Position numbers and translations under genes: made by a program | Shown here: piece by piece, positions 1,808 to 17,572 of the stretch | Layout of the letters: the number at the start of each line of letters is the position of its first letter | Numbering within the stretch: position 1 is the first letter of the stretch | Origin: Chloroflexota bacterium | GTDB taxonomy: Bacteria > Chloroflexota > Anaerolineae > Anaerolineales > UBA4823 | Assembly: GCA_012516075.1 (NCBI GenBank) | Contig: JAAYXE010000118.1 | Span: 1-64,000, forward strand | Direction of reading: 5' to 3' | DNA: 64,000 bases | Notes under the pieces: model-generated | The model's input: only the letters and a program-made list of their open reading frames with translations | Databases searched by the model: none | Told to the model about the DNA's origin: nothing

Positions 1808-2530
1808 ATGTCGGATGCACAGGCCAGGATGCAGATCCTGGAAATGATCGAGAACGGTCAGATCAGCGCGGAAGAAGGGCTGCGCCTGCTCGAGGCGATG
1901 AACGGCGCAGACGACCTGAAGGGGCTGGGGGCAGGAGAAGAAGATGTATCTTCAGCCGGTCCAGGCGCCAGCCCCGCCTTCGCACGGATTCCCATTAACG
2001 GCGGTGCCGGTTCCACACCGGAAACTCATACCGGAGAAGCCCCGGTAGAACCGGAAGTGGTGGAAGCACCTCGTGAAAGAGGGATTCCACCCGAGGCCAG
2101 AAAATTTAAACGCTGGTGGATTATCCCGATGGGGGCCGGCGTTGTGATCACCGTCTGCGGCGGGCTGCTGATGTACTGGCTGCTGCAGAGAGCTGGCGTC
2201 AGTTTGTGGTTCTTCCTGGCCTCGATCCCCTTCTTATTCGGCCTGGCGGTCATCATCCTGTCGTGGCAGGCTCGCACGGCACCCTGGCTGCACCTGCGCA
2301 TTTACGACAACGACACCGCAGGACGGACCCATCTGGCATTCAGCTTTCCGCTCCCCACGCGCCCGGCCGTATGGTTCTTTCAACGCTTTGGTAATCGCAT
2401 TTCCGGCCTGGACAGCGTGCCGGTGGAACAGGTCATCAAGGCGCTGGAGACAACCGCAACACAGGAAAATCCCTTCTACATCCATGTAGAAGATGATGAC
2501 GGAGATAAGATTGAACTCTTTATTGGCTGA
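1808..2530 (+). CDS. SHOCT-like domain membrane protein
   Basis: 240 residues. The N-terminus (ARMQILEMIENGQISAEEGL) is the shared SHOCT-like module. It is followed by a Pro/Gly/Ala-rich linker of about 70 residues and two adjacent hydrophobic helices (about residues 105-150; WWIIPMGAGVVITVCGGLLM and the following SLWFFLASIPFLFGLAVIIL). A C-terminal soluble domain (about 155-240) ends in HVEDDDGDKIELFIG. That ending closely matches the C-terminus of the next gene (YDEEDGEHVEIFIE), so the two proteins look like a membrane-bound and a soluble version of the same family. SD-like GGAGG precedes the ATG. Function unknown. Confidence 0.75.
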   Translation: MSDAQARMQILEMIENGQISAEEGLRLLEAMNGADDLKGLGAGEEDVSSAGPGASPAFARIPINGGAGSTPETHTGEAPVEPEVVEAPRERGIPPEARKFKRWWIIPMGAGVVITVCGGLLMYWLLQRAGVSLWFFLASIPFLFGLAVIILSWQARTAPWLHLRIYDNDTAGRTHLAFSFPLPTRPAVWFFQRFGNRISGLDSVPVEQVIKALETTATQENPFYIHVEDDDGDKIELFIG

Positions 2531-2584
2531 TCGTGAATTGAAGCCGGTTCTTGATTGCTACCAGCAATGCAGGAGTGAATAACC

Positions 2585-2959
2585 ATGGCAACCAGCGAAG
2601 AACGCATCAAAATATTGAAAATGGTCGAGGAGGGCAAAATTACGGCGGAGGAGGGCGCCAAACTGCTGGCGGCGCTTTCCGAAAGCCGCAGCAGTGCGCG
2701 CAAAACAAGCATGCGTACATCAGCAGGATCCGCCCGCTGGCTGCGCGTGCGCGTCACCGATACCGTCACCGGTAAAGCCAAGGCGACCGTAAACCTGCCC
2801 ATCGGGCTGGTGGACGCCGGCCTGAACATCGCCTCGCAGTATGCGCCCGGGATCGCCTTTGACGAGCTCATCGAGGCCATCAATACCGGCGCCGAAGGCA
2901 AAATCATCGACGTTTACGACGAGGAAGACGGAGAGCACGTCGAAATCTTTATCGAATGA
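2585..2959 (+). CDS. Small SHOCT-like domain protein
   Basis: 124 residues, no membrane segment. The N-terminal module (EERIKILKMVEEGKITAEEG) is the clearest copy of the motif found in all four genes at the start of the window. A short Ser/Arg linker leads to a C-terminal domain (residues about 48-124) with LRVRVTDTVTGKAKATVNLP and an acidic ending EEDGEHVEIFIE. This C-terminal domain is the same type as that of the preceding membrane protein. It is the last gene before a strong terminator. Proteins of this architecture occur widely in Chloroflexota and Firmicutes as uncharacterised SHOCT-like proteins; I infer no enzymatic role. Confidence 0.75.
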   Translation: MATSEERIKILKMVEEGKITAEEGAKLLAALSESRSSARKTSMRTSAGSARWLRVRVTDTVTGKAKATVNLPIGLVDAGLNIASQYAPGIAFDELIEAINTGAEGKIIDVYDEEDGEHVEIFIE

Positions 2960-3077: not shown

Positions 3078-3119
3078 CAGAACCGGATTTCGTCGACAGG
3101 ACTCCGGTTCTGTTTTTAT
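3078..3119 (+). terminator. Rho-independent terminator
   Basis: Perfect 10-bp stem CAGAACCGGA / TCCGGTTCTG with a 15-nt loop, followed directly by TTTTTAT. It ends the four-gene SHOCT/DUF2089 unit. The hairpin also lies just past the stop codon of the convergent rhodanese gene, and AATAAA on its left gives a short T-rich tail on the minus strand, so it may work in both directions. Confidence 0.85.
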
Positions 3120-3484
3120 CGTTCCGTTTTTGGCTTTAACAGCGGATACCCGGCCAGCCGCCAGGCGGCCACCCCTCCCCTGAGCGAATAGGCTTCATAG
3201 CCGTGTTCCCGCAGCCAGCGCGTCCCCGGCCGGCTGCGGTGACCGCTCAGGCACAGCACCACCACGGGGATCTGCCTGTCGAGCTCGATCTGCTCCATGA
3301 CCTCCGGCATACCGGTGACCGGAGCGTGGCGGGCCTCCGGGTGGACCGTCCCCTGCCGGTACTCCAGCCCGGTGCGGGCGTCCAGCACCTGCACCGGCCG
3401 CCCTTCCTGCAGCCAGCGCTGCAGCTCCCCGGGACTGATCTCCGGGACCTTCCCAAACAGCCGCCAGCGCAGGGGGAATTTCAC
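3116..3484 (-). CDS. Rhodanese-like sulfurtransferase
   Basis: 122 residues, a single rhodanese domain. The active-site loop is CLSGHRS with Cys78 in the persulfide-forming position, and the usual early motif VQVLDART is present. Rhodaneses pass sulfane sulfur to acceptors such as thiols or cyanide; the physiological acceptor cannot be read from sequence. Translation starts at GTG, overlapping the stop of the OsmC gene upstream (GTGA), which indicates translational coupling. It is the last gene of the minus-strand thiol/redox operon. The N-terminus has no signal peptide, so a cytoplasmic location is expected. Confidence 0.85.
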   Translation of the reverse strand: MKFPLRWRLFGKVPEISPGELQRWLQEGRPVQVLDARTGLEYRQGTVHPEARHAPVTGMPEVMEQIELDRQIPVVVLCLSGHRSRPGTRWLREHGYEAYSLRGGVAAWRLAGYPLLKPKTER

Positions 3485-3966
3485 ACTTCAACCCCGTCCG
3501 GGCAGTACTCGTACCTGCCCCGCACGACCTCGCGGCGCCGGCCGTCCCCCTCATCTTCATAAATCACATATTCGTGTGCGATGGGCATGATCTTCCCCAG
3601 CATGGCCTGTGCCGGGCAGTAGCGGACTGCCGACAGTTCGATCGCCCGCACCAGGGCCGTTTCGCTGACCTGCCGGCCAACCACCTCGTATTCCAGCACG
3701 GCAGAAGTGAACACCTTTGGGTGCTCATCCGCGCGCTCCACATGAACTTTCACGTCAAACGCAGTCACATCCTGGCGCTTCTTGCGCAGGATAGAGATCA
3801 CATCCATGGCGGTACAGCCCACCAGGCTGATGGCCATTAATTCCATCGGCCGAAAGCCGTCCTCATCACCACCCACATCGGCTTTGGCACTCAGAGGCAG
3901 CTCGTAACCACTTTCCGCTGTTCCGGTAAAACTCAGGTTCTGCTTCCACGATACTCTGGCATCCAT
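3481..3966 (-). CDS. OsmC/Ohr-family peroxidase-like protein
   Basis: 161 residues with the full OsmC fold pattern. Two cysteines sit in the family positions: Cys51 (SLVGCTAMD) and Cys117 (VRYCPAQAM). OsmC/Ohr proteins reduce organic hydroperoxides with these cysteines. The sequence is closest in style to the YhfA-like subgroup, whose substrates are poorly known. The last 35 residues form an extra charged tail (EDEGDGRRREVVRGRYEYCP) that is longer than usual. It sits 2 bp downstream of the thioredoxin-like gene and overlaps the rhodanese start by 4 bp, so it is translated within the same redox operon. Confidence 0.85.
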   Translation of the reverse strand: MDARVSWKQNLSFTGTAESGYELPLSAKADVGGDEDGFRPMELMAISLVGCTAMDVISILRKKRQDVTAFDVKVHVERADEHPKVFTSAVLEYEVVGRQVSETALVRAIELSAVRYCPAQAMLGKIMPIAHEYVIYEDEGDGRRREVVRGRYEYCPDGVEV

Positions 3967-3968
3967 GT

Positions 3969-4571
3969 TTACTCCTTCAAGAGAGATGTGATGTACTTTT
4001 CCAACATCTCACGAGAAATTGCGCCCGTCCAGGTGTAGCGCACCTGTCCGCTGCGGTCGATGACATATGAATTGGGCAGGCTCAGATTTCCAAAGGTGCG
4101 CAGTGCTTTCTGCCCCCGGTCCGGCCAGACATCAAAAGTCAGGCCATATTTTTCAACAAATTCGCGCACCTGCCCGGCAGGCTCGCCGGCTTCGACAGCC
4201 ACAATCCTGAAACCCTCGTCACGGTGCGCCTCATAATAGGCCTGCAGTTCGGGCATTTCTGCCAGGCAGGGCGGACACCAGGTGGCCCAGTTGTTCACCA
4301 GCAGCACCTGGCCGCGGTAGTCCGCCAGCGACACTGTGTTCCCATTCAGGTCGGTCAGCTCAAGTTCCGGGGCCGGGAAATCCACAGCCACCGGGATGAC
4401 CGAAGCGGGCGCCTCGACCTGAGTCCCTCGCACTGCGCCCGGCCCGAACAGCAAGAAAAGAGTCACCACCCCCAGAATGAGCAGGCCTGTACCCACCAGG
4501 GCCAGAGCCAGCACCCTGCCTGGTTTTTTCATTTTTCTTTTTTTGCGTGAGAGGTCTCCGAGGGCTGACAT
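3969..4571 (-). CDS. TlpA/ResA-like membrane-anchored thioredoxin
   Basis: 200 residues. A Lys/Arg-rich N-terminus and one hydrophobic helix (about residues 18-43) anchor an extracytoplasmic thioredoxin domain with active site WCPPC (Cys99, Cys102), preceded by LVNNWAT as in TlpA/ResA/AhpC-TSA proteins. A cis-Pro region (LSLPNSYVIDRSGQ) is present. The likely role is reducing disulfides outside the membrane, for example in apocytochromes c; a cytochrome gene lies elsewhere in the window, but no ccm genes are seen. The start ATG overlaps the upstream stop (ATGA), and a second ATG at residue 14 is an alternative. No SD is visible, consistent with coupling. Confidence 0.85.
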   Translation of the reverse strand: MSALGDLSRKKRKMKKPGRVLALALVGTGLLILGVVTLFLLFGPGAVRGTQVEAPASVIPVAVDFPAPELELTDLNGNTVSLADYRGQVLLVNNWATWCPPCLAEMPELQAYYEAHRDEGFRIVAVEAGEPAGQVREFVEKYGLTFDVWPDRGQKALRTFGNLSLPNSYVIDRSGQVRYTWTGAISREMLEKYITSLLKE

Positions 4572-4942
4572 CAGTTGTGGCGGTGTATGCGGCGTGGATC
4601 GCTCTCCAGTGTTCCGTTCACATAGGCCTGTACGGCATTGCGGATAAGTCCGCCGGCCAGGACAACCCGCAGCCCTGCATCGAGGGCCTTGCGGTAGGCG
4701 GGTTCGCCCATCCCCCCGCAGATCAGCACCTGGCAGTCGGTGATGGGCGCGAACATATCCGCATGTCCGTGCGCGTGTCCATGCTCCCCTTCCCCGTGAG
4801 GGTGGCGGGCGTGGTGTGCTTTGGGACGCTCTCCCTCTTCCACCACCTCACCATTCCGGACGCTGAACACAAGATAGGCAGGCGCCATGCCGAAGTGACT
4901 GCTGACCTTTTCACCATCATCGGTAACAACAGCAATTTTCAT
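4571..4942 (-). CDS. NifX/NafY-type dinitrogenase cofactor-like protein with His-rich insert
   Basis: 123 residues. It begins MKIAVVTDDGEKVSSHFG and contains CQVLICGGMGEPAY, both typical of the NifB/NifX/NafY 'dinitrogenase iron-molybdenum cofactor' fold. That fold binds metal clusters and is common far outside nitrogen fixation. Residues 43-60 are a His-rich loop (about nine His), probably metal-binding. Stand-alone members occur with thiol/redox genes in many anaerobes, with unknown function; no nif genes are seen here. I chose the ATG at 4942 because AGAAAGG lies upstream and the longer frame would run into the preceding gene. The stop overlaps the next start. Confidence 0.8.
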   Translation of the reverse strand: MKIAVVTDDGEKVSSHFGMAPAYLVFSVRNGEVVEEGERPKAHHARHPHGEGEHGHAHGHADMFAPITDCQVLICGGMGEPAYRKALDAGLRVVLAGGLIRNAVQAYVNGTLESDPRRIHRHN

Positions 4943-4976
4943 TTTATACCTTTCTGTAGAGGTGATGAACTCCCGA

Positions 4977-5645
4977 CTATGCTGCGATGGCGCGCTGAAT
5001 TTCGGCCACCAGGTAATCCTCCGGCACCGCACCCACGACCGTTCCCGCGCCCGAGTTAATGGTCGTTTGCGGCACGCCGCTGACGCCAAACCGGTCGGCC
5101 AGGTCCGGGAATTCCATGGCCTCAACCATTTCGGCCTCCACCATGGGGCTTTCCAGGGCCATCTGGTGGGCCAGGTATACTGCCCGGGGGCAGTACGGGC
5201 AGGTGGGAGTGACGAACACCTGCAGCAGAACCGGCTTTTCCAGGCCGCGCAGGAACTCGCGGGTAGTTTCGCTCAGGTCGGAGTCGCGGCGGGAGACCAG
5301 GACCAGATCGTGGTCAAAGGTGCTGAACTCGTGCCCGGAGGGGATCCCCGACAGGCGGATGCCGTAATCAACAATCCGGTCGCCATCCCGGCCGGCGATC
5401 ACCATCGCCGGCGCTTTATCCACCCGGTACTGCCGGGCGGTCTCCGGATCCTCATCGATATCAAAGGTCTGCAGGCCCAGCCTGTCGGACAGCGCAGTGA
5501 CCTCGGTGGCTAACTGCAGGGTTTCGTCGCAGTATTCGCAGCCTTTTTTCGAACCAAAAAACAGTATTTCCACCGGCTCCTGAAGCTTTTCGAATACTTC
5601 TTTCAACTGGGCGGTGATCTCCTCGTTCAACAATGCAGTAACCAT
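4977..5645 (-). CDS. Two-domain glutaredoxin-like protein disulfide oxidoreductase (PDO type)
   Basis: 222 residues made of two thioredoxin-fold halves, each with a CxxC centre: CEYC (Cys36/Cys39) and CPYC (Cys149/Cys152). This is the plan of the archaeal and thermophile PDO/glutaredoxin-like proteins, which act as cytoplasmic thioredoxin partners or oxidoreductases. The C-terminal half, with CPYC and a later GVSGVPQT cis-Pro loop, looks like the main active unit. The ATG at 5645 has a strong SD (GGAGAGG) seven bases upstream, and the longer open frame upstream is unlikely to be translated. It is the first gene of the redox operon, downstream of the sigma/anti-sigma pair. Confidence 0.85.
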   Translation of the reverse strand: MVTALLNEEITAQLKEVFEKLQEPVEILFFGSKKGCEYCDETLQLATEVTALSDRLGLQTFDIDEDPETARQYRVDKAPAMVIAGRDGDRIVDYGIRLSGIPSGHEFSTFDHDLVLVSRRDSDLSETTREFLRGLEKPVLLQVFVTPTCPYCPRAVYLAHQMALESPMVEAEMVEAMEFPDLADRFGVSGVPQTTINSGAGTVVGAVPEDYLVAEIQRAIAA

Positions 5646-5693
5646 GTATTTCCTCTCCTTCAGACCCCGTGCGGGCCGGTTGTCGTTACAGCA

Positions 5694-5738
5694 TCCATCC
5701 TGACGCCGCTCTCTTTTTAAGGCGGACATCAGGATGGA
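5694..5738. repeat. Imperfect inverted repeat in the leader of the redox operon
   Basis: Outer arms TCCATCCTGA and TCAGGATGGA pair perfectly over 10 bp, with CGCC/GGCG pairing inside. It lies between the anti-sigma gene and the PDO-type gene, about 50 bp upstream of that start. There is no U-tract in the direction of transcription, so an RNA-processing or attenuator role is as likely as a terminator. Confidence 0.5.
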
Positions 5739-5833
5739 CGTCCAATCACTTTATAAGATGCAATCTGAAAAGAAAGGTTGCACCTGAGGCCTGAAATCCT
5801 TTCCCCCTGTAAAGCGTGTGCAGTACCAGACGC

Positions 5834-6106
5834 TCATGGTTTTTTCGCGCCCGGCAGGCGGGCGTCCAGATATTCTTCCAGATCCAGGCGGCGGTACAGG
5901 CGGGCACGCACGTCCGCGGGTACATCCGGCGAGGGTGCGGTCTGGCGGTATAGATAAATCGTCTTGCGCAGCGTATCGACGACCACCTGGCAGTTCTCGC
6001 AGCCGGCCATGTGGCGCTCGATTTCGGCGCACAGCTCTTCTTCCAATACGCCATCGATGTAATCCGACAGCGATTCCAGCAGGTGGCGGCAGTCCTTTTT
6101 ATCCAT
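5834..6106 (-). CDS. Zinc-binding anti-sigma factor (ZAS type)
   Basis: 90 residues. The N-terminal half has the ZAS motif HxxxCxxC (His32, Cys36, Cys39) plus Cys6 near the start, as in RsrA-type anti-sigma factors that bind zinc and can release their sigma factor on disulfide formation. The C-terminal 45 residues are charged and helical, with no membrane segment, so the protein is cytosolic. The ATG lies inside the end of the sigma-factor gene (8-bp overlap), the usual arrangement for a cognate pair. Redox sensing is inferred from the zinc motif and the thiol operon next door. Confidence 0.85.
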   Translation of the reverse strand: MDKKDCRHLLESLSDYIDGVLEEELCAEIERHMAGCENCQVVVDTLRKTIYLYRQTAPSPDVPADVRARLYRRLDLEEYLDARLPGAKKP

Positions 6107-6722
6107 ACCGGTTTTCTCCTTCCACCATTCGCTCTCCAAAATACCGGGAAAGCTCTTCGCGCAGGCGCAGCCGGGCACGCGAAAGGCGGGTCTTTACGGC
6201 GGTTTCGCTGATATTCAGCACCTCGGCCGTCTCCTGAGTGGAAAGGCCTTCGATTTCTCGCAGGAGAAACACTGCTCGCAGCCGCGGCGGCAGGTTTTCG
6301 ATGGCCGCATCCAGGTGCGCCAGCGCCTCTGCAGACATTAGATCTCGCTCGGGAAGGCAGCACCAGTCAACGATCTGCAGCGGCTCCTGGATCTCATCCT
6401 CACCTTCGTAAGGATCTTCGATCGATACCATGCCCGTGCTCTTCTTTCGCCGGCGCAGCAGCATGAGAGCTTCATTGGTTGCTATCCGGTAAAGCCAGGT
6501 AGACAGCTTTGATCGACCGTCAAAACTGGGAAGATGGTGGTATGCTTTAATGAACGTCTCCTGCAGGATATCCTCCGCATCCTGCGGATTCCCCAGCATT
6601 TTCAAAGACAGACGGTAGATCAAACCGGAGTACGTCTCAACCAGCCTGGCAAATTCCGCCCGATCACCGGCTTTCAATGCAGGAATGTTAAACTGTTCGG
6701 GCGAAACTGTTCCTTCAGTCAT
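6099..6722 (-). CDS. ECF-type RNA polymerase sigma factor
   Basis: 207 residues from the chosen start. Region 2 (about residues 20-95) includes NPQDAEDILQETFIKAYHHL and STWLYRIATNEALMLLRR. Region 4 (about 130-190) has the promoter-recognition helix-turn-helix LSTQETAEVLNISETAVKTR. Between them is an acidic linker. The start at 6722 is preceded by CCAGGGA at proper spacing; longer versions reaching 6875 are possible but less likely. It is paired with the overlapping anti-sigma gene and probably controls itself and the thiol genes downstream, although I could not find a convincing shared ECF promoter motif. Confidence 0.9.
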   Translation of the reverse strand: MTEGTVSPEQFNIPALKAGDRAEFARLVETYSGLIYRLSLKMLGNPQDAEDILQETFIKAYHHLPSFDGRSKLSTWLYRIATNEALMLLRRRKKSTGMVSIEDPYEGEDEIQEPLQIVDWCCLPERDLMSAEALAHLDAAIENLPPRLRAVFLLREIEGLSTQETAEVLNISETAVKTRLSRARLRLREELSRYFGERMVEGENRYG

Positions 6723-6841
6723 TTGATGCATCCCTGGAGCAATCGTTACGTTGAATTCTTCTACAGAGGATTGTAACATACCGTGCCCGGTGCAAAACCG
6801 GGCTGAATAGTGTATACCGGTCGGCGAGAGCCTGCTCGTAA

Positions 6842-6870: not shown

Positions 6871-6941
6871 TCCACACAGTCAGGCGGGTGTTTAATGCAG
6901 AGAACTCATATATTAAAGAACGACTTTCCTGGAGGAAAGCA

Positions 6942-7745
6942 TTGACTGTTGTTACGTTAACAACTGACTTTGGCTTAAAAGACGGCAATGTCGGGGTAAT
7001 GAAGGGGGTCATCTGGCGGTTTGCACCCCATGCTCAAATTGCGGACCTGAGTCACCTGATTGGACCTCAAAACATCCGCGAAGCCGCCCTGGTGCTCGCA
7101 CGGGCGGTGCCTTATTTTCCCCCGGACAGCGTACACGTAGTCGTCGTCGACCCCGGTGTGGGGACGGAGCGCCGGCCGATCGCCGCCCAGATTGGCAGCC
7201 AGAAATTTGTCGCCCCGGATAACGGCGTCCTGTCCATGGTGCTGGACAGGGCAGAGCAGGAAAAGCAGCGGGTGGAAATCGTGCACCTGACGAAGCCGCA
7301 GTACTGGCTTCCCAGCATCAGCAACGTGTTCCACGGGCGCGACATCTTTGCGCCGGTAGCCGGGCATCTGGCGGCTGGCGCTCCGCTGGTTGTCCTGGGG
7401 ACTCCCATCAACGATCCTGTGCGCCTCGAGCTGCCCAAACCTGTGCCGGTTGAGAACGGGCTGCGCGGCGAAGTGCTCCACATTGATCATTTTGGCAATA
7501 TCACAACCACCATCCGCCAGGAGCATCTCAACGGAAAGCAGCAGGTTACGGTCCGCCTGGGTGGTCATGAAATCCGGGGGCTGGTGCGCACTTTTGGTGA
7601 CCGGCCGCCTGGATCGCTGATCGCCCTCATCGGCAGCAGCGGTGATCTGATCGTCTCGGTCGGCAACGGCAGCGCGGCCGGCCAGCTCAATGTAAAAATC
7701 GGGGACCCGGTGGACGTGCAGTACGAGCCCCAGCAGGCGAACTGA
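6942..7745 (+). CDS. S-adenosylmethionine hydrolase / SAM hydroxide adenosyltransferase (DUF62 family)
   Basis: 267 residues. The N-terminal domain has LTTDFGLKDGNVGVMKG, then VVVDPGVGTERRP, VAPDNGVLS and FHGRDIFAPVA; the C-terminal beta-barrel has IDHFGNITTTI. These are the signature blocks of the fluorinase/chlorinase-like DUF62 family, whose common members hydrolyse SAM to adenosine and methionine. Start chosen at TTG 6942 because GGAGG sits six bases upstream and the protein then begins right at the conserved strand. It is followed 14 bp later by the ECF transporter ATPase, so its product or substrate may be linked to what that transporter carries. Confidence 0.9.
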   Translation: MTVVTLTTDFGLKDGNVGVMKGVIWRFAPHAQIADLSHLIGPQNIREAALVLARAVPYFPPDSVHVVVVDPGVGTERRPIAAQIGSQKFVAPDNGVLSMVLDRAEQEKQRVEIVHLTKPQYWLPSISNVFHGRDIFAPVAGHLAAGAPLVVLGTPINDPVRLELPKPVPVENGLRGEVLHIDHFGNITTTIRQEHLNGKQQVTVRLGGHEIRGLVRTFGDRPPGSLIALIGSSGDLIVSVGNGSAAGQLNVKIGDPVDVQYEPQQAN

Positions 7746-7759
7746 TTGCAGGTTTTTCA

Positions 7760-9418
7760 ATGAATGACACCTTACCTCTCGTTGTAGAAGATTTAACCTT
7801 TCGCTACCGCGACCGGGAAGAACCTTCCATTCGTGACATATCCTTCACTGTCAGTCCTGGCGAACTGCTGCTGCTGGCGGGCGCCAGCGGCAGTGGAAAG
7901 ACCACCCTGCTGCGCTGCATTAATGGGTTGATCCCGCGCAGCTACAAGGGTGAGATCAGCGGGCGCATCCTCATCAATGGGCAGGATCCCAGCGAACTAT
8001 CGCTGGCGCGCATCTCACAGATGGTGGGCACCGTGCTGCAGGACCCCGAGCGCCAGATCCTGGGCTCGCGGGTGATCAGCGAGGTGGCCTTTGGCCTGGA
8101 GAATCTGGGACTCCCCCGCCCTGAAATCAGGGAGCGAGTGGACGAGGCGCTCAATCATTTAAAGATCGCCCACCTGCGCGACCGGGAAACTTTCAGCCTT
8201 TCAGGCGGAGAGAAACAGAAAGTTGCCCTGGCCGGTGTGCTGGCCATGCGCCCCAACATCCTGCTGCTCGACGAACCCCTTGCCAGCCTGGACCCGGCCA
8301 GCGCCCAGGAAGCGCTGCAGCTTGTGCGCGAGCTCGTGGACCAGGGGATGTCGGTGTTAATGATCGAACACCGCGTGGAAGATGTGCTCAAGATCCGGCC
8401 GGACCGGGTCATGCTGATGGAAGAGGGTACCGTGCGTTACCTGGGCCCCACAGAGGGGTTAATGAAAGCGGTGGATTACCATACGATCAAACTTCCGGCC
8501 CCGATGATCATCGAACGCGCCAGCAGAGACCCGGAACCTGCTGAGGTTCGCTTTTCCCCGGCCAATGGCGCGCAACCGGACCGCCCGCTGGTCGCGTTCC
8601 AGGACGTGCGCTTCTGGTATGAAGAGGGGGTGGATGTCCTGAAAGGTGTGAATCTGGAGCTGAACCGGGGTGATGTGATCGCCATCCTGGGGCCGAACGG
8701 AGCCGGGAAGACCACGCTGGTCAAACATGCCATCGGGCTGCTCAAACCGAAAGCCGGCCGTGTCCTGGTCAACGGTGAGGATACCCGCAAATTGAGCGTG
8801 GCTCAGGTGGCGAACACGCTCGGGTACGTCTTTCAAAGCCCCAGCCACATGTTATTTGCCCCCACGGTTGCAGAGGAACTGGCCTTTGGCCCTAAAAATC
8901 TGGGGCATCCAGCTCAGGTGATCGAAGAGGAGGTGAAAGAGGCGTTAGAAATTGTCAACTTAACAGGTCGAGAAACGGATCCTCCCCTGGCGCTTTCCTT
9001 CGGCCAGCAAAAGCGTGTAAGCATCGCCGCGATCCTGGCCATGCATTCTCGCATCCTGGTGATGGATGAGCCGACAGCTGGACAGGATTACAGGAACTAC
9101 ATGGATTTCATGGATGCAATCATGCAGATACCCAATTTTGAGGCGATCCTGTTCATCACCCATGATGTCGACCTGGCAGTGATCTACGCCAACCGGGTGC
9201 TCCTGGTGGATACCGGACAGGTCATTGCCGATGGCCCGCCTCACGAGGTTTTGAGCGACTTCGACCGGCTGAAGGCATCCAGGCTGGTGCCCACCTCGCT
9301 GCTGCAGACCAACCTGGAGTGGTTCTCACAGACCCGGCGTTTTATGCGTGCCGAGGCGCTGGCCCACGCCATCAACAGACATGGAGAGGAAAGCCCGGAT
9401 GGATCCTCACGCAGCTAA
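7760..9418 (+). CDS. ECF-type transporter ATPase, two ABC domains fused
   Basis: 552 residues with two complete ABC ATPase domains (about 1-240 and 275-520), corresponding to fused EcfA1 and EcfA2. Domain 1 has Walker A GASGSGKTT, signature LSGGEKQKVALAG and Walker B ILLLDEPLASLDP. Domain 2 has GPNGAGKTT, the variant signature LSFGQQKRVSIAA and ILVMDEPTAG. Such fused CbiO-like proteins power group-II ECF importers for vitamins, metals or nucleosides. The S and T components follow directly downstream. The asymmetric signature (LSGGE against LSFGQ) suggests two non-equivalent ATP sites. Confidence 0.92.
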   Translation: MNDTLPLVVEDLTFRYRDREEPSIRDISFTVSPGELLLLAGASGSGKTTLLRCINGLIPRSYKGEISGRILINGQDPSELSLARISQMVGTVLQDPERQILGSRVISEVAFGLENLGLPRPEIRERVDEALNHLKIAHLRDRETFSLSGGEKQKVALAGVLAMRPNILLLDEPLASLDPASAQEALQLVRELVDQGMSVLMIEHRVEDVLKIRPDRVMLMEEGTVRYLGPTEGLMKAVDYHTIKLPAPMIIERASRDPEPAEVRFSPANGAQPDRPLVAFQDVRFWYEEGVDVLKGVNLELNRGDVIAILGPNGAGKTTLVKHAIGLLKPKAGRVLVNGEDTRKLSVAQVANTLGYVFQSPSHMLFAPTVAEELAFGPKNLGHPAQVIEEEVKEALEIVNLTGRETDPPLALSFGQQKRVSIAAILAMHSRILVMDEPTAGQDYRNYMDFMDAIMQIPNFEAILFITHDVDLAVIYANRVLLVDTGQVIADGPPHEVLSDFDRLKASRLVPTSLLQTNLEWFSQTRRFMRAEALAHAINRHGEESPDGSSRS

Positions 9419-9452
9419 TTGAATTTTTTGTCTCACCGAGGAGGAACTTATC

Positions 9453-10397
9453 ATGCAAGGCACTGCTCGCAATAAATCGCTCTCTGTATTGTTGGCCCTG
9501 CTGGGAGTGGTGGTCGTCTTTGCACTGATCATCATGATCGGCGGAGCCCTGAATGAATCGCTGCAGCTCGATGAAACGGCTGTGCTGCGCTTCGTTTTCG
9601 TCGGCATTGGCCTGCTGGCCGTGTACGCCGTGTACTGGATCACACGCGAAAACCGGGTGTGGGAAGTGGGCACCCGCGAAGTCGTCTACATGTCGATCGG
9701 TGCGGCACTGTTTGCGCTGCTCTCCTGGCTGTTCAACGGCACGGTGTTCGTTGTTCCGTCGGTCAGCCAGGTGGCGCTGCGGCCTGCCATCGCCATTCCG
9801 ATGTTCTTCGGATATGCGTTCGGACCGGTCGTCGGCTTCTTTACCGGCGCAGTCGGCAACATGTTCGGCGACGCCCTCACCGGCTTTGGTCTCTCCCCGC
9901 AGTGGAGCGTGGGCAACGGCCTGATCGGCATGATCGCCGGCATGGTCTGGCTTTTTGACGACAAGCGCAGTAGCATCAACACGGTGCTGATCATCACCGC
10001 CGTGCTGGCTGCCCTGGCGACCCTGATCTACGTGTTCAACCCCACCATCCCGAACATGCTCTTCTTCGAACCGGAGAACAACATCTTCGGTGACCAGCAG
10101 ATCACCCTGTTTGCGGCCATTTCGCTGATCATCGGTTTCCTGCTGGTGCTGCTCATCCGCTTCGGCTTCGGCAAAGACATCGACGTCGCCGCGGCGGTGA
10201 CCTGGAGCGCCCTGGGGAACATCATCGGGATCGGCTTTGCCGCCATCTCTGACATCTGGATCAACGGCTTCTCCCCGGCGGTGGCCATCGTCGGCGAATT
10301 TCTCCCCGCCGCGGGCCCGAACCTGATCTTTGCGGCCATCCTGGTGCCGATCCTGGTGGTCGCTTATGAGGCCGTGCGCCGGCAGAGCGGGCGCTAG
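9453..10397 (+). CDS. ECF transporter S component (substrate-binding membrane protein)
   Basis: 314 residues, highly hydrophobic with about eight predicted helices; this is longer than the usual 170-220-residue S component. The core typical of S components is RPAIAIPMFFGYAFGPVVGF and GAVGNMFGDALTG. The first about 75 residues add two extra helices, and there is an enlarged loop (about 200-225, FEPENNIFGDQQ). The substrate cannot be told from sequence; the neighbouring SAM hydrolase makes adenosine, methionine or a related compound candidates. A good SD (GAGGAGG) precedes the ATG. It lies between the ATPase and the T component in one operon. Confidence 0.85.
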   Translation: MQGTARNKSLSVLLALLGVVVVFALIIMIGGALNESLQLDETAVLRFVFVGIGLLAVYAVYWITRENRVWEVGTREVVYMSIGAALFALLSWLFNGTVFVVPSVSQVALRPAIAIPMFFGYAFGPVVGFFTGAVGNMFGDALTGFGLSPQWSVGNGLIGMIAGMVWLFDDKRSSINTVLIITAVLAALATLIYVFNPTIPNMLFFEPENNIFGDQQITLFAAISLIIGFLLVLLIRFGFGKDIDVAAAVTWSALGNIIGIGFAAISDIWINGFSPAVAIVGEFLPAAGPNLIFAAILVPILVVAYEAVRRQSGR

Positions 10398-10490
10398 TAC
10401 CCGCAGTGCGGGCAGCCGGCCGGAGCGCAGCACACGCTTCCTGAACGGCCGGTGGACTGCGCTGCACATGCTTTTGAGAGAAAGGATCGA

Positions 10491-10524
10491 GACCGGCGGT
10501 GTGTTCGCCTGCTCACCGCCGGTC
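10491..10524 (+). repeat. Perfect stem-loop upstream of the T-component start
   Basis: GACCGGCGGTG and CACCGCCGGTC pair over 11 bp around a 12-nt loop. The 3' arm ends 14 bp before the ATG of the T component, which has no good SD of its own. The hairpin may tune translation or stability between the S and T genes. Confidence 0.6.
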
Positions 10525-10538
10525 AGCATCAAATCATC

Positions 10539-11420
10539 ATGTTAGTCAACTGGCGGTACCGAGAACGAGATTCGATCATCCAGACCTTTGACCCGCGCGC
10601 CTGGCTGATCTTCTTTGCCTGCTTCCTGGCGTCCACTCTGCTGTTCTGGGATGTGCGCTATCTGACCTTTTTCCTGGTCATCGCACTGATTGTGGTCTTT
10701 CGCTCCGGCATACCCTTTCGCGAGATGCGGCGCGCCTGGCTGTTCATCGGCGGGTTCATCATCTTCTTCGCCACGCTCACCTTCCTGACTGGCCGGGGAG
10801 GCATGGAGGTTTACACAGAAGAGCACCTGATCACGCGTCTGCAGGCTCCGTTCACTATCTTGAACTGGCGACCTGTGCTCAACATCACCGTGGAGCGCAC
10901 TTTCTTTGCCATCAGCCAGCTTGTGAGGGTGTTCAGTGTGGCCAGCATGACCATCCTGATCCCCTACTCGCTGAACCCTGCGCGCTACGGCATCACTTTC
11001 CGCGGGCTGGGTATGCCGGATAAGTTCGCGTACGCGATGGACCTGACCATGCGCTTTATCCCCACCCTGGGACGCGACTTCCAGCTCACGCTGGACGCCC
11101 AGCGCGCACGCGGCTACGAGCTGGAAAAGCTCAGGGGCGGGCTGATCGCTCAGGTGCGCAAGATGGCGCCCCTCATCGTGCCCGTTACCATCCACGCCAT
11201 CATCGGCAGTGAGGACGTGATCGACGCCATGGACCTGCGCGCCTTCGGCGTGGGACCGCGCACCTGGCTGGACGAGCTGCACTACCGCCGGCGGGACCGC
11301 ATCCTTATCGCCGTGGGCGTGACCATCCTGTTCCTGTCCATCCTGCTCTCACTCTTCGGCTTCGGCCAGTTCTGGGTGCCCCAGGCTGCCATCGAAATGT
11401 TCAGCAGCCCGGGATTGTAA
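10539..11420 (+). CDS. ecfT: ECF transporter T component (EcfT transmembrane protein)
   Basis: 293 residues. N-terminal hydrophobic segments (about residues 15-75 and beyond) are followed by the cytoplasmic coupling region with the two Ala-Arg-Gly-type motifs expected in EcfT: DAQRARGYELEK and the later AMDLRAFGVGPRT. These short helices bind the two ATPase domains. The product completes the ECF importer with the upstream ATPase and S component. Start chosen at ATG 10539, where homology to the family begins; SD support is weak, and a stem-loop lies just upstream. A terminator follows. Confidence 0.88.
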   Translation: MLVNWRYRERDSIIQTFDPRAWLIFFACFLASTLLFWDVRYLTFFLVIALIVVFRSGIPFREMRRAWLFIGGFIIFFATLTFLTGRGGMEVYTEEHLITRLQAPFTILNWRPVLNITVERTFFAISQLVRVFSVASMTILIPYSLNPARYGITFRGLGMPDKFAYAMDLTMRFIPTLGRDFQLTLDAQRARGYELEKLRGGLIAQVRKMAPLIVPVTIHAIIGSEDVIDAMDLRAFGVGPRTWLDELHYRRRDRILIAVGVTILFLSILLSLFGFGQFWVPQAAIEMFSSPGL

Positions 11421-16541: not shown

Positions 16542-17564
16542 TCATACCTTTCGGACGGACAGTTTCAACGTCTCCAGACGCGCTTCGGCCAGGCCCGGAA
16601 GAGCATCCAGGGCATAAAACGGGCCGTTCCCTTCCACGGTGAGCGATGCGGAGATGTTGCCGTGCAGCACAGCCTGCAGCGGGTCATACGTTCTGCGGTA
16701 ACCCGCCAGAAAGCCGCCGCAGAAGGCATCACCTGCACCCGTCGGGTTCACCATACGCGAAGGGTAAGAGGGGATTTCCCAGCGAGTACGCGATTGGGCA
16801 TCATATAAGAGCTGACCGCGTTCGCCGCGTTTAATCACAATAATTTCGCAGCCAAAAGCCGCCAGGGCTTCGGCCATTTCCCACAGGTCGCTGCTGCGGC
16901 CGTGGAAGAGCGAGCGCAGTTCCTCCTCCGAGGGCAGGAAAGCCGTCAGCCCTGTAATCAGGGCAGAGACGTCATCCCAGTAGACAGAATGCATATAGCC
17001 CGGCGACGGGTCGATGGTCACCGTGGCGACCTCCATCTGCCGCAGCACAGCCGGCAGCAGGCTGTGGGTCAGATAGTCCAGGGGGCAGAGGTGAGCGGCG
17101 TTCACATTGATAAATTCCGCCGGGATATCGCCCTGACGCAGCGAGGTGGGCAGCAGCTGGGTGCGGCTGGCCACGGCCGAGGCCGGCGGCGTGCGGTAGC
17201 CCAGCAGCGCCTTGGGGAAAGGGATGCTCAGGCGGGCAAAGTGGGTCACCGGGTCTTCATAGGAGCGCGTCGTGCGGTCCGCATAAGCGTAAAAGGAACG
17301 CACATCGACCGGCTGGGGCAGCACCTTTACCCCCCGGGCGTTCAGCCCGCGGCGGTAATACTCGTCGATCCACTCCTGCGGGTAGTCTTCCCCAACCCGG
17401 GCCAGGATGCCCGGTGGAGGGTCAGGCTCCCAGACCGCCAGACCCACTGCGGCATAAAGCACATTACCGCCTGGAACATCGATCAGAGTCTCACCCGAAG
17501 GCAGAATGACGAAGTCGCGGGCCAGCTGTCCCGCGAACATGTAACGAGGAGTTTCGGGCTTCAT
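16542..17564 (-). CDS. PfkB-family sugar/nucleoside kinase
   Basis: 340 residues from the ATG at 17564. PfkB features: an N-terminal GGNVLYAAVGLAVW region and the C-terminal ATP/anion-hole motif NPTGAGDAFCGGFLAGY, whose Asp is the catalytic base. The middle section (PSPGYMHSVYWDDV) is unlike ribokinase or fructokinase, so I name no substrate. No SD is seen, and a TATAAT lies so close to the ATG that the mRNA may be leaderless. It forms a two-gene operon with the M20 peptidase. Confidence 0.85.
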   Translation of the reverse strand: MKPETPRYMFAGQLARDFVILPSGETLIDVPGGNVLYAAVGLAVWEPDPPPGILARVGEDYPQEWIDEYYRRGLNARGVKVLPQPVDVRSFYAYADRTTRSYEDPVTHFARLSIPFPKALLGYRTPPASAVASRTQLLPTSLRQGDIPAEFINVNAAHLCPLDYLTHSLLPAVLRQMEVATVTIDPSPGYMHSVYWDDVSALITGLTAFLPSEEELRSLFHGRSSDLWEMAEALAAFGCEIIVIKRGERGQLLYDAQSRTRWEIPSYPSRMVNPTGAGDAFCGGFLAGYRRTYDPLQAVLHGNISASLTVEGNGPFYALDALPGLAEARLETLKLSVRKV

Positions 17565-17572
17565 CAATAAAA

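Follow-up and report, generated by a model that had tools for sequence, protein, structure and literature searches.

A predicted thiol-redox switch of an ECF sigma factor and a zinc anti-sigma factor in Chloroflexota

Genes and predicted control elements of the locus

Within a stretch of 64,000 nucleotides (contig JAAYXE010000118.1, the whole stretch being called the window below) from the genome of a Chloroflexota bacterium (4.86 Mb, 199 contigs), the minus strand carries between 6722 and 3116 a block in which the gene of an extracytoplasmic function (ECF) sigma factor and that of a zinc anti-sigma factor are followed by five further genes, here called the thiol operon. The original prediction had named the sigma and anti-sigma genes and, behind them, PDO-type, NifX-like, TlpA-like, OsmC and rhodanese genes; all seven are indeed present, each at the position given below and with its family above the Pfam cut-off, PDO being a protein disulfide oxidoreductase.

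6099..6722, minus strand: ECF sigma factor, 207 aa (Pfam Sigma70_r2 and r4_2 above cut-offs)
5834..6106, minus strand: soluble CHCC zinc anti-sigma factor, 90 aa, with C6, C26, H32, C36 and C39 (zf-HC2 above cut-off)
4977..5645, minus strand: PDO with two thioredoxin folds, CEYC and CPYC (Thioredoxin_3; TIGR02187)
4571..4942, minus strand: NifX-like protein with a histidine-rich insert, the insert read from the sequence (Nitro_FeMo-Co PF02579, 62 bits)
3969..4532, minus strand: TlpA/ResA-like membrane-anchored thioredoxin, WCPPC; alternative start 4571 (AhpC-TSA, 95.6 bits)
3481..3966, minus strand: OsmC-family protein (PF02566, 62.4 bits)
3116..3484, minus strand: single-domain rhodanese, catalytic-type Cys in CLSGHRS, read from the sequence (PF00581, 47 bits)
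6722..6751, minus strand: predicted autoregulatory ECF promoter ACGTAACG-N14-GCATCAAA (matrix score 14.05, top site of the 64-kb window)
5754..5783, minus strand: predicted thiol-operon promoter GTGCAACC-N14-GCATCTTA, lying some 109 nt ahead of the PDO start (matrix score 12.48, second-best in the window)
5690..5742, minus strand: long stable hairpin in the PDO leader (fold z-score -3.5 over the whole intergenic region)

The genes had also been described as linked by overlaps, which is correct for the sigma and anti-sigma genes (8 nt) and for the OsmC and rhodanese genes (4 nt). The TlpA-like gene touches the NifX-like gene only with the start at 4571, not with that at 4532; a 34-nt gap separates the PDO and NifX-like genes, and 188 nt lie between the anti-sigma gene and PDO. 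Since this last gap holds a promoter-like site of its own as well as a strong hairpin, the block probably consists of two transcription units under one sigma factor.

The PDO passes the NCBIfam model TIGR02187 (264.3 bits against a cut-off of 185), carries CEYC at position 36 and CPYC at 149, and has its solved relatives in Pyrococcus (1j08/1a8l, E 1e-46). Two thioredoxin folds and two CxxC sites are shared with the PDOs of Pyrococcus and Aquifex; here, the protein is predicted to stand under an ECF sigma factor. The TlpA-like protein matches the ResA model with E 6e-37, below its cut-off. An Rfam search of the region matched no family, the PDO-leader hairpin included, and for this hairpin a repeat element was ruled out, as it occurs in a single copy in the genome.

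The sigma/anti-sigma pair recurs across the class, judged to be Anaerolineae from the named relatives, and the sigma family is found in 122 of 298 genomes from it (E <= 1e-35). In 77 named loci with both genes, OsmC occurs in 50, PDO in 49, a TlpA-like gene in 36, glutaredoxin in 24, rhodanese in 8 and a NifX-like gene in 7, while one locus (L209) keeps the entire gene order of the window, with a glutaredoxin in addition. Thioredoxin reductase was present in 5 loci of the first locus set and a second OsmC type in 6 (names given by eye and from later comparison).

The common promoter and its predicted targets

In the DNA preceding the sigma gene at 75 loci, a count of words of the form 5-mer/gap/3-mer yielded GTAAC-N17-CAT in 19 loci and GTAAC-N18-ATC in 18, against 8 loci for the best word of the shuffled control (five shuffled sets). 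The promoter matrix was refined without the window, on the other 74 loci (40 sites used); it has the consensus TGTAAC(C/T)-N15/16-GCATC(T/C)AA, and its scores fall clearly into two peaks. A scan of both strands of the window places the two best sites before the sigma gene (6751-6722, 14.05) and before PDO (5783-5754, 12.48), that is, exactly upstream of 6722 and 5645, where the original prediction had proposed to look for a shared ECF promoter, and this with a matrix trained on other genomes; the next site scores 10.0, and the chance expectation is 0.05 sites of at least 12.5 per 64 kb. The third match (17539-17568, plus strand) was set aside, about 0.4 sites of its score being expected per 64 kb and no plausible gene lying downstream. 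A sigma-upstream site above 9.2 was also found in 55 of 67 further named loci having no 40-mers in common with the training set; these remained from 80 after exclusion of three without a sigma gene on the contig, one that was too short and nine sharing DNA with the training set.

Sites of this type before PDO depend on the presence of the sigma factor. Of 34 genomes holding the sigma family, 20 have such a site within 250 nt upstream of PDO; of 26 genomes lacking the family, none has (Fisher p 5e-7, with no correction for kinship). Many of the 20 PDO genes bearing a site lie far from the sigma gene. Genomes were counted as sigma-less if they had no match at E <= 1e-35, with at most 10 candidates scored per genome, and a few of them may hold a diverged sigma factor. 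The count joins 40 PDO loci with 20 picked from the listed matches in genomes outside the sigma survey; it is cleaner than an earlier tally, in which some PDO genes, split by TGA, were counted twice. The same dependence is seen for thioredoxin reductase of the type present in the window's genome, which has a site upstream in 12 of 14 sigma-bearing genomes (the own one included) and in 0 of 16 others, when sites before the gene itself and those before a glutaredoxin or PDO gene that precedes it are counted. As the genomes are related, both contrasts overstate the number of independent events.

The window's own genome contains 20 matches to the pattern GYMACN{16,17}CATCNWA, compared with 8 for the reversed control. 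Eight matches score about 12.5 or more. Seven of them stand before sigma, PDO, the genes of a second OsmC, of a glutaredoxin with CAFC and of two thioredoxin reductases, and a DUF2892 gene with a WCGPC thioredoxin behind it (products named by eye, except sigma and PDO). The eighth (C34:331-359, 12.6) was rejected, the contig ending within about 330 nt and no gene being recognisable. The predicted thiol-stress regulon is therefore not contained in one block, as had originally been proposed, but dispersed in the genome.

In two other named genomes, one of them Anaerolinea thermolimosa, sites of at least 15 have glutaredoxin, peroxiredoxin, rhodanese lipoprotein and OsmC genes, sigma, PDO and one FmdB-like gene downstream, and several sites of 9.6-14.7 have no redox gene; these stretches (20, with 23 of 64 pattern matches) were picked by eye for good matches and represent a selection, not a rate, with products again named by eye. 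On one A. thermolimosa contig (L364), a heavy-metal ATPase-like gene is present twice, inverted and about 4.4 kb apart, each time behind the same 12.7 site, a duplication which could be an assembly artefact.

One type of thioredoxin reductase adjoins PDO or glutaredoxin genes in many genomes (L286, L288-L293, L300 and others). It is probably the reductase of PDO, because it stands beside PDO or glutaredoxin elsewhere and, in the window's genome, is unlinked but has the same promoter.

The anti-sigma factor and the proposed switch

The RsrA-like pattern ascribed to the anti-sigma factor in the original prediction, Cys6, His32, Cys36 and Cys39, is exact in its sequence, and each of C6, C26, H32, C36 and C39 is retained by 68 of 69 aligned anti-sigma sequences, among them that of the window. 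With HxxxCxxC, a Cys/His 23-26 residues upstream and a gene encoded together with that of an ECF sigma factor, the protein classes as a zinc anti-sigma factor (ZAS), and with Cys as the predicted N-terminal zinc ligand in a soluble, single-domain protein it falls into the RsrA-like CHCC subtype; inspected by eye, its 90 aa contain no hydrophobic stretch. RsrA is the nearest solved anti-sigma factor (5frf, E 1.3e-4), the RsrA model TIGR03988 is matched nearly full-length (E 3.3e-10), and C6, C26, H32, C36 and C39 align with RsrA residues 11, 31, 37, 41 and 44 (numbering as in PMC4960319; the solved protein carries substitutions at 31 and 41). In RsrA, zinc is bound by Cys11, His37, Cys41 and Cys44, the trigger disulfide joins Cys11 with Cys41 or Cys44, and Cys31 is non-essential; according to the same source, oxidation sensing by RsrA requires Cys as the N-terminal zinc ligand, and HHCC proteins do not sense disulfide stress (PMC4960319). 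Since this predicted ligand is Cys here, the anti-sigma family is, by analogy with the RsrA rule, of the redox-sensing kind. Among the best 80 of 290 matches, its closest relatives from named genomes belong to Chloroflexota, mostly labelled Anaerolineae or its orders, and include the cultured Anaerolinea thermolimosa IMO-1.

Streptomyces SigR-RsrA (ECF12) and Corynebacterium SigH-RshA share with the present system a CHCC zinc anti-sigma factor that is soluble, has a single domain and spaces its Cys and His residues identically, together with a regulon in which thioredoxin reductase and thioredoxin occur beside related thiol enzymes (PMC4960319, PMC3489674). Unlike these two, the system lies in the phylum Chloroflexota, has PDO as its predicted central output and employs a sigma factor nearer SigW than SigH/SigR: the closest solved relative is Bacillus subtilis SigW (5wuq, E 6e-32), Mycobacterium tuberculosis SigH being weaker (E 3e-16), and the score of 81.5 bits against TIGR02947 (actinobacterial SigH/SigR, taken as ECF12) is below the curated cut-off of 251.55, as are the 140.9-150.1 bits of the SigW models below theirs. 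The -35 element TGTAAC of B. subtilis SigX resembles that of the promoter found here; RsiW is a membrane protein, and the SigW/SigX-type regulon is one of envelope stress. In contrast to this type, the anti-sigma factor here is soluble and CHCC (HHCC in RsiW), and the regulon is one of thiol genes. The promoter, TGTAAC-N16/17-CATC, also differs from the SigR-type consensus GGGAAT-16 nt-GTTG given in PMC3489674. As both NCBIfam cut-offs, of TIGR02947 for the sigma factor and of TIGR03988 for its partner, are missed and the promoter is another one, the pair stands outside the SigR-RsrA family by the tests made. The sigma factor may belong to ECF271, to which it was likened by description (phylum, soluble zinc anti-sigma partner); this group of the Casas-Pastor classification has a soluble ZAS, a model protein from Chloroflexi bacterium RBG_16_56_8 and a mechanism given as unknown (PMC8999054), and a protein is assigned to it by the group model or by its similarity to OGO36537.1. 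Our literature searches returned no closer system and no function for this Chloroflexota ECF family.

From the gene content and from the CHCC make-up of the anti-sigma factor, we infer an oxidative signal. We consider it likely that the pair is a cytoplasmic thiol-redox switch, which works like SigR-RsrA and governs a disulfide/thiol stress regulon. Under reducing conditions, the anti-sigma factor would hold one zinc via Cys6-His32-Cys36-Cys39 and would bind and silence the sigma factor; disulfide or oxidant stress would oxidise the zinc-binding cysteines, the likeliest pairing being that of Cys6 with Cys36 or Cys39, upon which zinc would leave and the sigma factor be freed. The latter would then direct RNA polymerase to the promoters of the above consensus, with the sigma gene itself, the PDO-NifX-like-TlpA-OsmC-rhodanese operon and unlinked thioredoxin reductase, thioredoxin, glutaredoxin and OsmC genes as putative targets, and the induced PDO/thioredoxin-reductase system (TrxB) would reduce cytoplasmic disulfides including that of the anti-sigma factor, by which the switch would be reset. 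As far as sequence comparison reaches, the notion of a redox pair driving the adjacent thiol genes is supported by the two sites in the window, by the PDO contrast and by the thiol-redox nature of the predicted targets.

It should also be noted that several results weigh against this switch. In the first set, 38 of 76 sigma genes have no site over the 9.2 cut, and 14 of 34 PDO genes in sigma-bearing genomes are without a site of their own; among the latter, those of L035, L037, L041 and L058 follow the anti-sigma gene on its own strand and could be reached by read-through, and the other misses are not so placed. For the loose core pattern, the own genome shows no enrichment (432 matches, 1154 for the reversed control), and chance alone would give about 4 sites of at least 12.5 in a genome of such size, so that the case for the regulon rests on the high-scoring sites adjoining redox genes. 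The anti-sigma factor reaches 39.9 bits with TIGR03988, below the curated cut-off of 62.5, and its AlphaFold model, with four helices, is poor (predicted local distance difference test, pLDDT, 63).

The stress had originally been proposed to be one of disulfides or of sulfane sulfur. The first part agrees with the regulon content, whereas specific evidence for sulfane sulfur was not found. A persulfide or polysulfide switch, in which the anti-sigma cysteines would be persulfidated and PDO, rhodanese, OsmC and TlpA would remove or transfer sulfane sulfur, might be read from the rhodanese in the window's operon and near 8 of the 77 named loci, from the rhodanese lipoproteins behind the strongest sites in the two other genomes and from a CsoR-like gene in 4 neighbourhoods (named by eye from the sequence). 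We nevertheless regard it as unlikely, since the PDO here is a protein disulfide oxidoreductase and not a persulfide dioxygenase, neither a persulfide dioxygenase nor a sulfide:quinone reductase was seen among the predicted targets read by eye, and most targets (TrxB, thioredoxin, glutaredoxin, PDO) make up a disulfide-reduction set. Sensing of zinc or another metal, in which the sigma factor would be freed once the metal is lost or displaced and the NifX-like protein with its His-rich insert would act as a metal buffer, would fit the insert in that protein, the ATPase-like gene behind the 12.7 site of A. thermolimosa and the activation of the SigR regulon by zinc limitation (PMC4960319), but only 7 of the 77 loci contain the NifX-like gene and the strong sites stand before thiol genes, not metal transport genes, which makes this explanation very improbable. 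Least probable of all is that the pair merely adjoins the operon and that PDO and the later genes use a housekeeping promoter, for which the 188-nt gap could speak, but this gap has an ECF-type site of 12.5, such a PDO site is absent from all 26 sigma-less genomes, and a scan for sigma-70-type promoters found none in the gap and, overall, no more sites than in shuffles.

If the thiol-redox switch is real, it would give a Chloroflexota ECF family its promoter code and regulon along with a mechanism open to testing (and, should the assignment be true, a promoter and a regulon for ECF271), and it would place a SigR-RsrA-like thiol homeostat with another sigma factor and promoter, and with a PDO system like that of hyperthermophiles as its main output, in a large class of which most knowledge comes from metagenomes. 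The matrix could also be used to list thiol genes whose role is unknown (for example, NifX-like, DUF2892 and FmdB-like).

The sigma start codon, PDO relatives and flanking genes

The sigma gene starts at the very edge of its promoter. Among 94 distinct promoters, the first in-frame ATG/GTG follows CATC at a distance of 2 nt in 34, of 3 nt in 27 and of 4 nt in 6 (67 of 94), a set from which loci with a sigma match not over 110 bits, homology starting after residue 25, short upstream DNA or a score below 9.2, as well as duplicates, had been dropped. In the window (6728-6720), the matrix site ends with the very A that opens the start codon. Other targets are arranged differently, PDO sites being found 27-140 nt upstream of the gene. 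In 18 sigma loci, an in-frame stop codon directly follows CATC, and there no earlier sigma start is possible. At ECF promoters, the transcript is expected to start several bases past the -10 element, here at or past the sigma ATG, so the sigma-driven message should either be leaderless or lack the sigma start. We see an even chance that the autoregulated message is leaderless, beginning with the ATG, or begins inside the sigma gene and encodes the anti-sigma factor (and PDO by read-through) with no sigma factor. If the transcript skips sigma, the loop would be one of purely negative feedback, switching the response off quickly. A partial parallel exists in Corynebacterium glutamicum, where SigH drives rshA from a separate promoter and the sigH-rshA operon has SigA-type promoters (PMC3489674).

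Among 108 distinct relatives of the PDO, 32 (for example, L045, L206 and L209) have an in-frame TGA in place of the first Cys codon of the second CxxC, and a short inverted repeat after the TGA was seen by eye in some of the printed sequences. Judged from their sequences, these relatives are probably PDOs with selenocysteine; in that of the window, this position is Cys, not TGA.

Divergent from the block, at 6888-7745 on the plus strand, lies a gene for S-adenosylmethionine (SAM) hydroxide adenosyltransferase (Pfam SAM_HAT_N/C), followed at 7760-11420 by genes which, by eye, resemble an energy-coupling-factor transporter. On the other side, the thiol operon ends facing two convergent genes with SHOCT-like domains (1808-2959, plus strand).

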